This document shows positions 3,371 through 35,306 of a stretch of 42,343 nucleotides of DNA, piece after piece. Made by a program: the position numbers and the translations under genes. Every line of letters starts with the position of its first letter. The stretch's first letter is position 1. The notes beneath the pieces are model-generated. The model did not search any database and had not been told where the DNA came from. It saw only the letters and a list, made by a program, of their open reading frames with translations. The stretch comes from Deltaproteobacteria bacterium (GTDB lineage Bacteria > Desulfobacterota > GWC2-55-46 > UBA9637), in NCBI GenBank assembly GCA_016219285.1, contig JACRNJ010000073.1, positions 1-42,343 of the forward strand, read 5' to 3'.

Positions 3371-3672
3371 TGGCGCGTTCTGTGAAAAAAGGCCCTTTTG
3401 TAGATGGTCACCTGCTAAAAAAAATAGAGCAGGCAAATGAAGTAAAGGCCAAGAAGATTATTAAAACATGGTCCAGGCGTTCTACCATTACCCCGGATAT
3501 GATTGGCCATACTATAGCTGTTCATAATGGCAAGAAGTTCATACCTGTTTTTATAACTGAAAATATGGTGGGCCATAAACTGGGCGAATTTTCACCTACC
3601 AGGACATTTCGCACTCACTCTGGAGAGAAAAAAACCAAGGTCTCTGGCGCAGGTGATAATAAAGCAGTATAA
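3370..3672 (+). CDS. rpsS: 30S ribosomal protein S19
   Basis: uS19 is a 30S head protein near the A-site finger. The 100-aa product begins [20 protein letters not shown] and has [18 protein letters not shown], both diagnostic. The start is GTG at 3370, overlapping the rplB stop by one base, with AAGGAGG (3358-3364) five bases upstream inside rplB. This is one of the few tight junctions left in this operon. Confidence 0.96.
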
Positions 3673-3753
3673 AGACAATATGTGATTGCAGATGAAAAAT
3701 TTACAAAGTATTAATTTTAAAGATTAGGTTTATATAAATAGAGAGGTATAGAA

Positions 3754-4086
3754 ATGGAATCAAAGGCGATTGCAAAATATGCAAGGGTTAGCCCGCAAAA
3801 GGCGCGGCTTGTGGTAGACCTTATAAGAGGTAAAAAGGTGGATGAGGCTATTGCGACTTTGACTTTTACCAAAAAGGCAGTTTCTAAAATTGTTGATAAG
3901 ATTTTAAAAAGCGCAGTGGCAAATGCAGAGAACACAAAGAAGATGGATGTGGATACGCTTTATGTAAAGAAAGCATATGTTGATCAAGCCCCTACTATGA
4001 AGAGGACACATGCAAAGGCTATGGGCAGGGCAAATATTATAAGAAGGCGAAGCAGCCACATTACTATAATATTAGATGAGAAGTAG
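3754..4086 (+). CDS. rplV: 50S ribosomal protein L22
   Basis: uL22 lines the exit tunnel with a long beta hairpin. The 110-aa product begins MESKAIAKYARVSPQKARLV, the conserved N-terminus, and contains the hairpin segment PTMKRTHAKAMGRANIIRRR. GAGAGG lies about nine bases upstream of the ATG. The 81-nt gap after rpsS holds no recognisable element; it is simply AT-rich. Confidence 0.95.
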   Translation: MESKAIAKYARVSPQKARLVVDLIRGKKVDEAIATLTFTKKAVSKIVDKILKSAVANAENTKKMDVDTLYVKKAYVDQAPTMKRTHAKAMGRANIIRRRSSHITIILDEK

Positions 4087-5808: not shown

Positions 5809-5881
5809 TGATTTACGAATTACGATTTACGAATTACGATTTAAAGTCTTAAATCACAAATCTAAAATCGTAAATCTAAAA
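5809..5881. repeat. Heptamer inverted-repeat element upstream of rplN
   Basis: Left words GATTTAC, GAATTAC, GATTTAC, GAATTAC, GATTTAA, then core AGTCTT, then AAATCAC, AAATCTA, AAATCGT, AAATCTA. The following AAATGGAGCGCAGCGAT carries the rplN Shine-Dalgarno sequence and the recurrent MERSD-like block. Confidence 0.85.
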
Positions 5882-5896
5882 TGGAGCGCAGCGATT

Positions 5897-6684: not shown

Positions 6685-7226
6685 TGGCCAGATTAAAAGA
6701 TATATACAATAAAAATATAGTCCCAAGCATGATGAAAGAGTTTAAGTATAAAAATGTCATGCAGGTGCCTCGTTTTGAAAAGGTTGTCTTGAATGTTGGG
6801 CTTGGAGAGGCTACTCAAAACGTCAAGGTGGTAGACCATGCGGTGCAGGATATTGCCAGTATAACAGGACAGAAACCAGTTGTAACTACGGCAAAACAAT
6901 CCATAGCATCATTCAAATTAAGACAGGGAATGCCAATAGGTTGTATGGTTACCCTTAGGGGCGCCAAGATGTACGAATTTTTAGATAGATTTATTAACTT
7001 TGCGCTTCCACGTGTGAGAGATTTTAAGGGTGTATCTGACAAGTCTTTTGACGGCAGGGGCAGCTACACAATCGGTATTAGAGAGCAGATTATCTTTCTT
7101 GAAGTAGAATATGACAAAATAGATAAGATAAGAGGTATGAATATAACGTTTGTCACTACTGCAAAAAGTGATAATGAGGCAAAGGCGCTTTTAAAGAATT
7201 TTGGAATGCCGTTTAGATTACAGTGA
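6684..7226 (+). CDS. rplE: 50S ribosomal protein L5
   Basis: uL5 binds 5S rRNA and contacts P-site tRNA. The ATG at 6684 overlaps the rplX stop (TGATG) and gives 180 aa, the normal size; the track's eight-codon extension runs into rplX. Motifs include [34 protein letters not shown] and [23 protein letters not shown] lies six bases upstream. The stop codon sits inside the first heptamer (CAGTGAA) of the following element, so the last residues may be repeat-derived. Confidence 0.96.
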
Positions 7227-7289
7227 ACAGTTATCAGTAAACAGTTATCAGTGAAAAACCAAAGTTGATAACTGGTAACTGATAACTGA
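7221..7289. repeat. Heptamer inverted-repeat element with CAGTTAT word, upstream of rpsZ
   Basis: Exactly five left words (7221-7255): CAGTGAA, CAGTTAT, CAGTAAA, CAGTTAT, CAGTGAA. After the core come AACTGGT, AACTGAT, AACTGAA. CAGTTATCAG (7228-7237) and CTGATAACTG (7279-7288) are perfect reverse complements. It has the same 35-nt arm length as elements built from other words. The rplE stop codon is inside the first word. Confidence 0.85.
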
Positions 7290-30619: not shown

Positions 30620-30823
30620 ATGAAACTAAAAATAATAGTTCACAAGGCTGAAGAAGGCGGATTTTGGGCTGAAGCGCCTGCGCTTCCCGGATGTTATACG
30701 CAGGGAGATACATGGGAGGAATTATTACAGAATCTCTACGAAGCAATCGAGGCCTGCCTTTCTGTTGATGCCGAAGGGATTGAATTAAAGCCGGAAGACA
30801 AGGTGCTGGAAATTGCTGTATGA
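30620..30823 (+). CDS. hicB: HicB-like antitoxin
   Basis: A 67-aa protein with the HicB fold: IIVHKAEEGGFWAEAPALPG, CYTQGDTWEELLQNLYEAIE. This is the short form, without a C-terminal ribbon-helix-helix DNA-binding domain. HicB binds and neutralises HicA. GAGGAAATT precedes the ATG. A weak promoter-like pair TTGAAG (30576-30581) and TATAAC (30600-30605) is upstream. Its stop overlaps the hicA start (ATGA). Confidence 0.85.
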   Translation: MKLKIIVHKAEEGGFWAEAPALPGCYTQGDTWEELLQNLYEAIEACLSVDAEGIELKPEDKVLEIAV

Positions 30824-31026
30824 AAAGTATTTCGGGCAAGTATCTGTGCAAGCTTCTGGAGAAAAGGGATTGGCAAGTAAAGAAAATACATGGCAGTCAT
30901 TATGTATACATGAAGGCTGGAAGGAAAGAAAGAATAAGCGTTCCTGTCCACGGCAACAAAGATTTGAAAATTGGCATGGCAAAGGCAATAATGAAACTTG
31001 CCGGAATTGATGAAAGCGAACTATAA
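30820..31026 (+). CDS. hicA: HicA-like mRNA interferase toxin
   Basis: A 68-aa protein of the HicA double-stranded-RNA-binding-like fold. KYLCKLLEKRDWQVKKIHGSHYVY includes the catalytic His27 in GSHYVY. The usual variant is GSHHIF or GSHHVY, so the active-site context is intact. The end is IPVHGNKDLKIGMAKAIMKLAGI-like. Gene order is hicB-hicA, reversed from the E. coli order but common. The overlap with hicB ensures the antitoxin is made first. Confidence 0.88.
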   Translation: MKSISGKYLCKLLEKRDWQVKKIHGSHYVYMKAGRKERISVPVHGNKDLKIGMAKAIMKLAGIDESEL

Positions 31027-31170: not shown

Positions 31171-31253
31171 GCGAGGGTGGCGGAACTGGCAGACGCGCCA
31201 GACTTAGGATCTGGTGGGCAACCATGGGGGTTCGACTCCCCCCTCTCGCACCA
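31171..31253 (+). tRNA. tRNA-Leu (UAG)
   Basis: A class II tRNA with a long variable arm and encoded CCA. Acceptor GCGAGGG pairs with CTCTCGC, anticodon stem CCAGA/TCTGG holds loop CTTAGGA with anticodon TAG at 31205-31207, and the T arm GGGGGTTCGACTCCCCC is standard. Confidence 0.97.
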
Positions 31254-31264
31254 AAAAATGAAAA

Positions 31265-31800
31265 GATTAAATCTAAAATTACAAACAAACAATTAAAAAT
31301 TAAATTTTAATTTGTAATTTATTATTTAGCATGTAGAATTTATATTTATAATAGAGATTCGTTTTATGATTTCCTATACAATTCAAAATTAAAATGATTA
31401 AAGGCTCGGATATTTCTGATAGATTGGTGCAATTCTCGGTGAGAATTATTAGGATCGTGAGGTCATTGCCTAACAATGCTGTTAACAAGCATATATCTAA
31501 CCAACTTCTCAGGTCTGCAACTTCTCCTGGCGCCAATTATGAAGAAGCTAGAGGAGCTGAAAGTGCTTCTGATTTTATCCATAAACTTAAGGTGGTATTG
31601 AAAGAGTTGAGGGAATCTATTTATTGGTTGAAGGTTATTCAGCAGGCAGAAATAATTCCTGTAAATAAGTTAAGCGATATTCTTAAAGAGGCTGAAGAGT
31701 TAAGTAAAATTATTGGCCAGTCAATTATTACTGCACGAAAAAATCAAGATCAAAAGTAATTTTACTTTTTAATTGTTTATTTAGATATTTCTATTTAATA
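31265..31800. mobile_element. Four-helix-bundle gene cassette framed by inverted repeats
   Basis: The arms 31265-31304 and 31761-31800 align as imperfect inverted repeats (about 31 of 40 positions; 20 of 22 over AAACAAACAATTAAAAATTA with AA). The left arm divides into five 7-nt words (31269-31303: AAATCTA, AAATTAC, AAACAAA, CAATTAA, AAATTAA), and the right arm contains their partners (TTACTTT, TTAATTG, TTTATTT). The first base after the tRNA-Leu CCA is only 11 nt away. AT-richness weakens the statistics. Confidence 0.5.
31394..31759 (+). CDS. Four-helix-bundle protein (23S rRNA intervening-sequence protein type)
   Basis: A 121-aa all-helical protein: DISDRLVQFSVRIIRIVRSL, NNAVNKHISNQLLRSATSPGANYEEARGAES and DFIHKLKVVLKELRESIYWL. 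This is the S23/IVP family (PF05635-like), first found in insertions of 23S rRNA genes and structurally similar to Avd of diversity-generating retroelements. Here it is free-standing, between tRNA-Leu and tig, with no rRNA nearby. There is no ribosome-binding site before the ATG. Its molecular role is unknown. It is the only accessory protein in the window directly framed by arms like those of the small repeats. Confidence 0.88.
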   Translation: MIKGSDISDRLVQFSVRIIRIVRSLPNNAVNKHISNQLLRSATSPGANYEEARGAESASDFIHKLKVVLKELRESIYWLKVIQQAEIIPVNKLSDILKEAEELSKIIGQSIITARKNQDQK

Positions 31801-31820: not shown

Positions 31821-33110
31821 ATGAAGATATCAGTAGAAGATATAAGTCCTGTAAAAAAGAGGCTCATTATAGAAGTTCCGTCTGAAGATATTGACAAGGA
31901 GCTGGATGCTGCATACAGTGAGCTTGCAGCAACTGTCTCTATAGACGGTTTCAGAAAAGGGAGGGTGCCGAAGGCGGTGTTGGAAAAACGGTATAAAGAC
32001 CACGTGTTTGGAGAGGTTGTCTCAAAAGTTATTGAGAATTCTTATCCAAAGGCGGTTCAGGGGAACAATATCAATCCTGTTTCAAGGCCTGATATAGAAG
32101 TAAAGGCGGGCATAGAGCGCGGCCGCTCTTTCTCCTATATTGCAACTGTTGAGGTTAGGCCGAGTATAAATGTAGATGGTTATATAGGTATGGAGCTTAA
32201 AAAGGGAGATGTGACAGTTAGCGATGATGAGGCGGAAAAGAGTATGGAGCTTTTGAGGGAGGGGAATGCGCATTTCAGCGAGGTTGAACGGCCTGCCATA
32301 GAAAAGGATATGGTTGTCATAGATTTTGAAGGATTTATTGGCGGCAAGTCTGTAGAAAATGCAAAGGCATCTGAATATCCTGCTGTAATAGGCACAAATA
32401 CGCTTGTTCCTGAAATTGAGCAGGTGTTGCCCGGGATGAAAAAGGGGGATGAAAAAGATGTGCATGTAAAATTCCCTCAGGGATACGGCCATAAAAAACT
32501 TGCAGGCAAAGAGGCGCTCTTTAAGGTAAAGGTCAAGGCGGTGAAAGAGAGGGTGCTGCCTGCACTGGATGATGAATTTGCAAAGGATTTAAAACTTGAC
32601 AATATCGCCCAACTGAAAGATAAGGTAAGAGAGGCCATAATAAAACAGAAAGAGGCGGCAGAAAAGGAAGAGTTTAAGAAAGAGATACTTGAGAAGCTCA
32701 TTGAAAAGAACACCTTTGATTCCCCGCCGGCGCTTGTTGCAGGTTATCTGCAGTCATTTGTTTCTCAGGCGATAGAGAGTATAAAAAATGGAAGGGTAAA
32801 GCCTGAGGATGCGGCAGAAATGGCCCCGGAAAGATTAAAAGAGAAATATTCCAATATAGCGGAAATGAGGGTTAAGGAAGAGATGATACTGGATGCTGTG
32901 GCAAGGCAGGAGAATATAACTGTTGCAGAAGATGAGATAAATTTACGTATACAACAGATGGCCGAGCAGCGCCACCAGAGGTTTGATGATGTTAAGAGAC
33001 AGCTCATGGAGCAAGGTTCTGACAGTATGCTGGCGGCTCAAATGCTGGAAGAAAAGGTGTTTGATTTTATCATAGAAAAGGCAAAAATGCAGCGCCTGAC
33101 TAACAGATAG
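31821..33110 (+). CDS. tig: Trigger factor
   Basis: A ribosome-associated chaperone and peptidyl-prolyl isomerase, binding at L23. In this 429-aa protein the N-terminal ribosome-binding signature is GFRKGRVPKAVLEKRYKD (around residues 44-61). The FKBP-type PPIase domain is about 150-240 (VVIDFEGFIGGKS, VKFPQGYGHKKLAGKEALF), and the remainder is the helical chaperone domain. AAGGAGAG lies before the ATG. tig-clpP-clpX-lon is a classical protein-quality operon order. Confidence 0.94.
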   Translation: MKISVEDISPVKKRLIIEVPSEDIDKELDAAYSELAATVSIDGFRKGRVPKAVLEKRYKDHVFGEVVSKVIENSYPKAVQGNNINPVSRPDIEVKAGIERGRSFSYIATVEVRPSINVDGYIGMELKKGDVTVSDDEAEKSMELLREGNAHFSEVERPAIEKDMVVIDFEGFIGGKSVENAKASEYPAVIGTNTLVPEIEQVLPGMKKGDEKDVHVKFPQGYGHKKLAGKEALFKVKVKAVKERVLPALDDEFAKDLKLDNIAQLKDKVREAIIKQKEAAEKEEFKKEILEKLIEKNTFDSPPALVAGYLQSFVSQAIESIKNGRVKPEDAAEMAPERLKEKYSNIAEMRVKEEMILDAVARQENITVAEDEINLRIQQMAEQRHQRFDDVKRQLMEQGSDSMLAAQMLEEKVFDFIIEKAKMQRLTNR

Positions 33111-33127
33111 CCTTAAGATGAGAAATT

Positions 33128-33201
33128 GCAGCTTGCCCGACCCAACCTTTGGTTGGGTGCCCCATGGGCGTTTTAAAGACGCCGATGAATCGGCAGGCTA
33201 C
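33128..33201. repeat. GTAG/CTAC dispersed palindromic element, copy 5
   Basis: Starts GCAGCTTGCCCGACCCAACC (first base changed from GTAG) and ends CCGATGAATCGGCAGGCTAC. It carries the CCCAACCTTTGGTTGGG hairpin insert also seen in copy 2, here near the left end rather than the right. It begins 17 nt after the tig stop. Confidence 0.82.
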
Positions 33202-33237
33202 AAAAAACATTGTTATTTTTTGTTAAGATATTTAATT

Positions 33238-33290
33238 GTAGTTTGCCCATTTATGGGCGTTTTAAAGACGCCGATAAATCGGCAGGCTAC
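33238..33290. repeat. GTAG/CTAC dispersed palindromic element, copy 6
   Basis: Starts GTAGTTTGCCCATTTATGGG and ends CCGATAAATCGGCAGGCTAC (53 nt). It lies in the same orientation as copy 5, 36 nt further on, directly upstream of clpP. Hairpin order (CCCAT first, CCGAT second) is opposite to copy 4. Confidence 0.88.
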
Positions 33291-33308
33291 CCATAAAATG
33301 GAGGCAAA

Positions 33309-33973: not shown

Positions 33974-35236
33974 ATGGCAGACAAAAAGAGAGGAAACGAC
34001 GGTTTGCGCTGTTCGTTTTGCGGCAAAAACCAGGCTGAGGTGAAAAAGCTTATCGCCGGTCCGATGGTATATATATGCGATAGCTGCGTAGAACTCTGCA
34101 ATGATATAATTGCTGAAGAGTATGAAAAAGATGAGATAACTCATGACAGGGAAATGACGGTTCCAAAGCCTGCTGATATTAAGAAGATACTGGATGAGTA
34201 TGTTGTTGGGCAGGAACGGGCAAAAAAGATATTGTCTGTTGCAGTTCATAATCATTATAAAAGGATTGAGAGCAAGGAAAAGAAGTTTAATATGGGAGGG
34301 GTTGAGCTTCAGAAAAGCAATATACTCCTGCTAGGTCCGACAGGTTCAGGCAAGACGCTTCTTGCGCAGACGCTTGCAAAGATACTGAATGTTCCATTTA
34401 CCATAGCCGATGCCACAACATTAACAGAAGCTGGATATGTAGGCGAAGATGTTGAAAATATAATTTTAAACCTGCTGCAGAACTCAAATTATGAGATAGA
34501 TAAATGCCAGAAAGGTATTGTATATATAGATGAGATAGACAAGATATCAAGAAAATCTGACAGCCCTTCTATTACAAGGGATGTCTCAGGCGAAGGGGTT
34601 CAGCAGGCTCTTTTAAAGATAATTGAAGGCACTATTGCAAATGTCCCTCCAAAAGGGGGGAGGAAGCACCCTCAGCAGGAATTTCTGCAGGTTGACACTA
34701 CAAATATCCTTTTTATATGCGGCGGCGCCTTTGCCGGATTGGAAAATATCATTCAGCAGAGGATAGGCAAGAAGACCCTGGGTTTTGGCGCAGAGGTAAA
34801 AAGGAAGACGGAAAGAAATATAAATGAACTCCTGTGCGAGATTCAACCTGAAGATTTGCTGAAATACGGTTTGATACCTGAATTTGTGGGAAGGCTGCCT
34901 GTTGTTGCTGTTCTGGATGAATTGGACGAGAATGTCCTTGTAAAGATACTTACGGAGCCGCGCAACGCCCTTGTCAAGCAGTATCAGAAACTTTTCGAAT
35001 TTGAGAATGTCAAACTTAAATTCACGGACAGCGCAGTTGCTGCGGTTGCCAGAGAGGCAATGAAGAGGAAAACAGGCGCAAGGGGGCTGAGGGCCATTCT
35101 TGAAAATGCCATGCTGGATGTGATGTATGAAATGCCTTCACAGATTAATATAAGAGAATGCCTTGTTAATGAGGATGTGATACTGGGCAAGGGGAATCCG
35201 ATAATGGTTTATGAGAAGAAGGCGGAATCAGCATGA
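33974..35236 (+). CDS. clpX: ATP-dependent Clp protease ATP-binding subunit ClpX
   Basis: ClpX unfolds substrates for ClpP. The ATG at 33974 after GCGGGGGT gives 420 aa; the track's extension comes from the repeat. The zinc-binding domain is [18 protein letters not shown]...CDSCVELC (residues 15-48), Walker A is GPTGSGKT, the pore loop is in the [18 protein letters not shown] region, and Walker B is IVYIDEIDK. The IGF-type ClpP-binding loop appears as LGFGAEV. It lies between clpP and lon. Confidence 0.96.
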
Positions 35237-35306
35237 CGATTTACGAATTGCGATTTACGAATTACGATTTAAAATCTAAAATCATAAATCTAAAATCGTA
35301 AATCAA
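35236..35306. repeat. Heptamer inverted-repeat element upstream of lon
   Basis: Left words GATTTAC, GAATTGC, GATTTAC, GAATTAC, GATTTAA; right AATCTAA, AATCATA, AATCTAA, AATCGTA, AATCAAA. Bases 35256-35296 are identical over 41 nt to 2501-2541 upstream of rplB. CGAGGTGA of lon follows. Confidence 0.87.

Follow-up and report, generated by a model that had tools for sequence, protein, structure and literature searches.

Free-standing IVP genes between inverted arrays of seven-nucleotide words point to an undescribed class of bacterial mobile cassettes

Most free-standing S23/IVP genes that we examined lie between two inverted arms made of tandem 7-nt words, and these armed genes point to an undescribed class of mobile cassettes. 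The evidence comprises the architecture itself, its specificity for the gene family, arms that pair element by element, words that match the protein, and gene-plus-arm blocks that differ between related genomes. We consider it probable (roughly 0.6) that free-standing IVP genes belong, as its coding members, to a class of small cassettes present across bacteria, with a protein that would bind its own words and thereby enable insertion or copying. Such a cassette would have a four-helix-bundle gene at its center and an inverted arm on either side; each arm would be an array of 7-nt (sometimes 8-nt) words, usually of about 4 to 9 units. The mechanism by which the cassettes spread is something that we infer.

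An IVP gene in a tRNA-Leu/tig slot

The window, by which we mean the whole 42,343-nt stretch of DNA analyzed, is contig C58 of a 2.28-Mb deltaproteobacterial genome (G000). Its IVP locus has the following features, all on the forward strand:

31171..31253, +, tRNA-Leu (UAG), the left neighbor of the insertion slot
31262..31347, +, period-7 segment that takes in the left arm, with a small hairpin of its own inside (31268-31296 / 31300-31328)
31266..31304, +, left arm of the IVP cassette, with inverted-repeat and period-7 scores above the shuffle maxima
31394..31759, +, S23/IVP four-helix-bundle gene, 121 aa (PF05635, TIGR02436)
31761..31799, +, right arm of the IVP cassette, the reverse complement of the left arm, with weak heptad structure
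31821..33110, +, right neighbor gene, putative trigger factor (tig), judging by sequence and gene neighbors

The gene product matches PF05635 23S_rRNA_IVP (E 8e-18, 65 bits against a curated cutoff of 33.8) and TIGR02436 (E 3e-26, 91.6 bits against a curated cutoff of 24). Its AlphaFold2 model (pLDDT 94.9) is a four-helix bundle like 2RLD and 2GSC, which are its best and second-best PDB matches, followed by Avd (4DWL). The solved relatives 2RLD and 2GSC contain five chains each. To our knowledge, no catalytic activity is known for the S23/IVP family. The S23p of X. campestris is reported to be a homopentamer (PMC4990558).

The original prediction described imperfect inverted repeats of about 40 nt around this gene and a left repeat that divides into five 7-nt words, and both descriptions proved accurate. 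Positions 31266-31304 pair imperfectly with 31761-31799, at an alignment score of 23 against a maximum of 21 among 2,000 dinucleotide-preserving shuffles. Complementary ends therefore enclose the gene, with the right arm beginning no more than 2 nt from the stop codon. The left-arm words (AAATCTA, AAATTAC, AAACAAA, CAATTAA, and AAATTAA) are contiguous at 31269-31303, and the left flank has a period-7 score of 27 against a shuffle maximum of 20. Heptads are clear in the left arm only, the right arm scoring 9 (P = 0.018). A self-fold on the left side (31268-31328) also makes this cassette less than the cleanest example. No rRNA was found in the window, and the slot has tRNA-Leu on one side and a protein gene on the other and is thus not inside a 23S rRNA helix. 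None of the IVP loci fetched up to the point of a search for conserved 23S motifs had one, and PADLOC matched no defense-system model.

Several other elements lie close to the locus. Just upstream of tRNA-Leu (30620-31026) are two small adjacent open reading frames that read as HicB/HicA toxin-antitoxin-like from their sequence only. Downstream, 33127-33211 and 33237-33291 carry a non-heptad dispersed repeat (GGGCGTTTTAAAGACGCCGATAAATCGGCAGGCTAC) with dozens of copies in the related genomes G001 to G007. G002, G003, and G007 contain an AT-rich core, about 120 nt long, in dispersed and nearly identical copies (L134-L143). Some of its copies have octamer AGAGTCAA arms and others GCAGTAA-type arms, and window positions 31751-31798, in the right-arm region, are 96 to 98% identical to its right half in these three genomes.

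Arms around IVP genes across bacteria

The IVP loci that we gathered came from relatives and the phylum of the window, from cyanobacteria, and from a set of 80 named loci spread over the bacteria. The resulting survey set comprised 167 nonredundant IVP genes with usable flanks from more than 10 phyla, with query-returned loci leaning toward the best-scoring family members. At the thresholds that we chose for periodicity and inverted repeats, 113 of the 167 genes carry a period-7 array in either flank and 64 carry one in both (strict threshold). Period 8 is found in a flank of 17 genes, an array of period 7 or 8 in a flank of 126, and about one-quarter of IVP genes have neither within 250 nt. 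The numbers of genes with periods of 5, 6, 9, 10, and 11 are 0, 2, 1, 1, and 0, respectively. Base agreement within the arms is 65% at a distance of 7 and 62% at 14, compared with 25 to 34% at the other distances from 3 to 15. Arrays in both flanks frame 30 of 73 IVP genes but only 2 of 284 control open reading frames of the same loci, and a gene-spanning inverted repeat (score of at least 19) encloses 100 of 162 IVP genes and 5 of 279 controls. In G000 itself, word arrays can be seen in one flank or both of most of its roughly nine IVP genes. The idea that the window locus follows the plan of the small elements with a gene as its core thus extends to most of the free-standing IVP genes examined in many phyla, whose inspected flanks are for the most part armed.

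The prevailing layout of armed genes is left arm, gene, and right arm, with few self-contained hairpins on a single flank. Arm pairing is specific to the element: at 61 loci, the left flank finds its best partner, out of 112 candidates, in the right flank of the same gene, and left and right flanks match with a median score of 20.5 in inverted orientation versus 11 in direct orientation. Period 8 replaces period 7 in the arms of L014, L037, L039, L070, L092, L097, and L114. We rejected the notion that the period is fixed by protein clade, as the period-8 loci are scattered on the tree (6 changes versus 6.9 when shuffled).

A second gene family has arms of another period. GxxExxY genes (TIGR04256, PF13366 PDDEXK_3; PD-(D/E)XK superfamily) carry strong gene-spanning inverted arms in 21 of 27 loci, and their words repeat at 8 to 10 nt, none at period 7. 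Examples among L376-L405 include CACGGAATA, ACGCAGATGA, and CGCAAAGG. The period depends on the gene family, and GxxExxY arms therefore serve both as a control and as an extension of the plan. Inverted word arms are common to the two families, which differ in word length and in the nuclease-superfamily protein encoded by GxxExxY genes.

When matching sites are compared between congeners, arms and gene vary together as a unit, or else the site is vacant. The tRNA-Leu/tig slot holds the window IVP gene in G000 and G002 and a different IVP gene with different arms in G003, and it is empty in G001, where tig directly follows the tRNA. One site in genus g51 carries the same armed IVP gene in G071 and G136 and another IVP gene with other arms in G107, the flanks being 92 to 97% identical across the two different cassettes. 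At another g51 site, an armed IVP gene in G107 faces a broken GxxExxY gene with its own arms in G071, so that the two families resemble each other also in taking the same slot. Arms change by whole units, as illustrated by a 14-nt (2 x 7) insertion in G002 (L151) relative to the window segment 31262..31347. No target-site duplication was definable and no insertion was caught in the act, and shared slots could reflect a scarcity of neutral intergenic sites.

IVP genes on other replicons, and in one fusion, were also recorded. An IVP match was present in 29 of 72,556 records of a plasmid collection, almost all of them cyanobacterial, and Avd accounted for the sole matches of the IVP search in a phage collection. 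The IVP gene of a Trichormus conjugative plasmid (L295) is armed too. Two 40-kb Trichormus plasmid stretches compared for strain-level arm change were identical, and a Calothrix plasmid pair was rejected as separate insertions because the plasmid backbone is common to both. L010 (G000:C34:46612-46824) encodes an IVP-like protein fused to a TIGR04258 "4helix_suffix" domain and has no arms.

Arm words and the protein

Across phyla, arm words and protein sequence vary together. For cross-phylum pairs, mean word similarity rises from 0.002-0.003 below 40% protein identity to 0.010 at 50 to 55%, 0.039 at 55 to 60%, and 0.17 at 60 to 70%, and word sharing is about 0.5% below 40% identity versus 40% at 60 to 70%. 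For pairs with at least 50% identity, the mean is 0.0185, compared with 0.0070 +/- 0.0015 when permuted within phyla (P<0.0005), with kinship among the sampled genomes controlled in part. Thus, AGTGGTT is common to a Ruminococcus and a Thiohalocapsa locus, AGTCGGG to Treponema and Phormidium loci, ACGGTGG to Hydrogenedentota and Planctomycetota loci, and AGGATTG to Chitinophaga and Betaproteobacteria loci. Neutral noncoding DNA should be fully diverged at 55 to 65% protein identity; the simplest explanation for the words is therefore recognition by the protein, and from these comparisons we infer that the IVP protein reads its arm words.

Mismatches in the arm stems comprise 148 of the G-U type and 181 of the A-C type, and selection on a sense-strand RNA stem was rejected for want of a G-U excess. 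This balance favors recognition at the DNA level over a sense RNA hairpin, with RNA as the lesser possibility. The original prediction that the protein binds the folded arms thus gains indirect support for recognition, through the cross-phylum co-variation, and loses it for folded RNA.

Co-variation would also be expected of a self-regulating or tolerance module. In such a module, the arms would serve as operators or as sites of processing, the target of the IVP protein would be its own transcript or DNA, and the unit would be passed on like any ordinary gene rather than being mobile. Left arms are purine-rich on the gene's strand at 71 of 84 loci, like a ribosome-binding region, and RNase III removes the hairpin of the Coxiella 23S rRNA intervening sequence (IVS) (PMC4990558), both of which would suit such a module. 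Against it stand the congener sites that are empty or occupied by different IVP cassettes, IVP copies from distant clades inside one genome, the dispersal of species-specific gene-less hairpins, and the lack of a G-U excess in the stem. We therefore regard such a module as unlikely.

Gene-less hairpins and modes of spread

The window contains 23 period-7 array segments (score of at least 14), i.e., 22 beside the IVP left arm, while each of the other periods from 4 to 13 yields 0 to 2 segments. The neighborhood folds as a single hairpin at 14 of the 23. Four gene-less hairpins, listed without strand, are as follows:

5810..5882, gene-less heptad hairpin with GATTTAC/GAATTAC words
7220..7289, gene-less heptad hairpin with TAACTGA words, the heptamer described in Beggiatoaceae (PMC4679880)
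33895..33954, gene-less heptad hairpin with AAGTTGC words, between putative clpP and clpX
35236..35304, gene-less heptad hairpin in the interval from putative clpX to putative lon

No Rfam family matched the hairpins at gathering thresholds. Gene-less heptad hairpins crowd the G000 genome, and they are scattered and species-specific. For example, G000, G003, G005, and G007 each have a heptad hairpin between putative clpX and lon, with words that differ among them, and in G001 this slot holds none. Gene-less arrays tend to have words in common with IVP genes of the same genome, and the window IVP gene ranks third of 131 loci for word match to the window arrays, a rank to which AT-rich composition contributes. 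At one locus (L165; G006:C60 near 3480-3820), a GATTTAC heptad hairpin has a foreign repeat of about 250 nt in its loop, which gives the impression that such loops are targets for insertion.

We compared array counts among genomes outside the window's own family, in samples of mostly 20 kb and up to 54 kb. Gene-less arrays number 3 in 751 kb from 40 IVP-free genomes and 25 in 831 kb from 42 IVP-containing genomes (p = 4e-5), being present in 2 of the former and 13 of the latter (p = 0.003), and other periods do not differ between the two groups. IVP gene number had been predicted to track element number, and it does so only loosely, with a Spearman rho of 0.46 over 50 genomes and 0.32 outside the window's family. 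The prediction would have suffered from element-rich genomes that lack IVP genes, and every sampled hairpin-rich genome has them. Several IVP-rich genomes have zero gene-less arrays in the 20 kb sampled, yet their IVP genes are armed (L215 and L204).

Polymerase slippage, a hypothesis for bacterial heptamers cited in PMC4692102, could make the arrays by itself, with IVP genes merely landing in existing hairpin loops. It would accommodate the gain or loss of whole arm units between G000 and G002 (14 nt) and among Coxiella strains (PMC4990558), as well as heptamers found without a gene. Nevertheless, arrays are rare in IVP-free genomes, where other periods are equally common, and armed IVP genes occur in genomes whose sampled background has no arrays. 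The words moreover track the protein, and GxxExxY arms have a different period, which together make slippage alone quite improbable.

We give similarly little credence to mobilization of the hairpins and IVP genes by another enzyme, either a Y1/RAYT transposase, as with REP, or a reverse transcriptase in trans, with IVP as a passenger or adaptor like Avd. IVP is indeed homologous in fold to Avd, the accessory protein of diversity-generating retroelements (4DWL and 8UBx structures; PHROG 3206), and Y1 transposases are common in the window's family. Unlike Avd, the IVP gene has no adjacent reverse transcriptase (the only match in G000 is on contig C3, whereas the window is C58), and a reverse transcriptase in trans was rejected because none was found in the hairpin-rich genomes G003, G005, and G006, which have 4, 9, and 12 IVP genes, respectively. 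Y1/RAYT transposases were rejected as owners of the arms, as 0 of 20 Y1 genes in the same genomes have a period-7 flank, and only 2 Y1 genes occur in G003, which ranks second in array density.

Under the preferred reading, that of a cassette whose protein binds its own words, the IVP protein, a ring of five in solved relatives, would bind its word arrays, likelier as DNA. Binding would let the cassette and word-matched gene-less hairpins insert or copy into short intergenic slots, a step that host replication or repair enzymes may carry out. A more specific version is tentative: the pentamer may read the words, perhaps one for each subunit where arms have about five units, and drive the spread of the cassette and its matching hairpins, while the GxxExxY sister class competes for slots. 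On the preferred reading as such, the IVP-bearing 23S rRNA IVS would be the same cassette in an rRNA helix, excised from the transcript by RNase III.

Known systems resemble the cassettes in part. The 23S rRNA IVSs of Leptospira and Coxiella have the same protein family and hairpin-forming ends, and in Coxiella, tandem GACAGAT heptamers of strain-variable copy number lie just upstream of S23p, which is apparently not expressed and whose gene is decaying (Warrier et al., PMC4990558). The loci described here differ in that they are intergenic, have gene-less relatives, and carry words that co-vary with the protein. REP/BIME elements with RAYT (Y1) likewise combine a chromosomal gene between palindromic repeats with many dispersed gene-less copies; however, IVP is not a Y1 transposase, its arms are tandem 7-nt word arrays, and such arms are absent from Y1 genes of the same genomes. 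Heptanucleotides of cyanobacteria (Nostoc) and Xanthomonas (GGGAATC) (PMC4692102) and the TAACTGA repeats of Beggiatoaceae (PMC4679880) are the same kind of word as in IVP arms, but they have mainly been described as direct repeats, and these papers link no protein to them. Xanthomonadaceae IVP loci, fetched after GGGAATC was known from the literature, have GGGAATC/GGGATTC words in 8 of 29 flanks versus 3 of 135 armed loci elsewhere (p = 5e-6, comparing armed loci). The heptamers of the Coxiella IVS, Xanthomonas, Nostoc, and Beggiatoaceae all fit the cassette class. Among the open-access papers searched, none connected IVP proteins with heptamer repeats, and novelty is provisional, subscription papers lying outside this search.

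If the cassette reading is true, it would give a role to S23/IVP, among the commonest small protein families without one, and would turn the 23S rRNA intervening sequence into one site at which a general element lands. The cross-phylum protein/word pairs offer ready binding assays with built-in controls, a protein's own words against those of another pair. The reading would also join S23/IVP to the heptanucleotide repeats of cyanobacteria, Xanthomonas, and Beggiatoaceae, so far treated separately and ascribed to slippage, and IVP cassettes may thus explain the long-puzzling 7-letter repeats of bacterial genomes.
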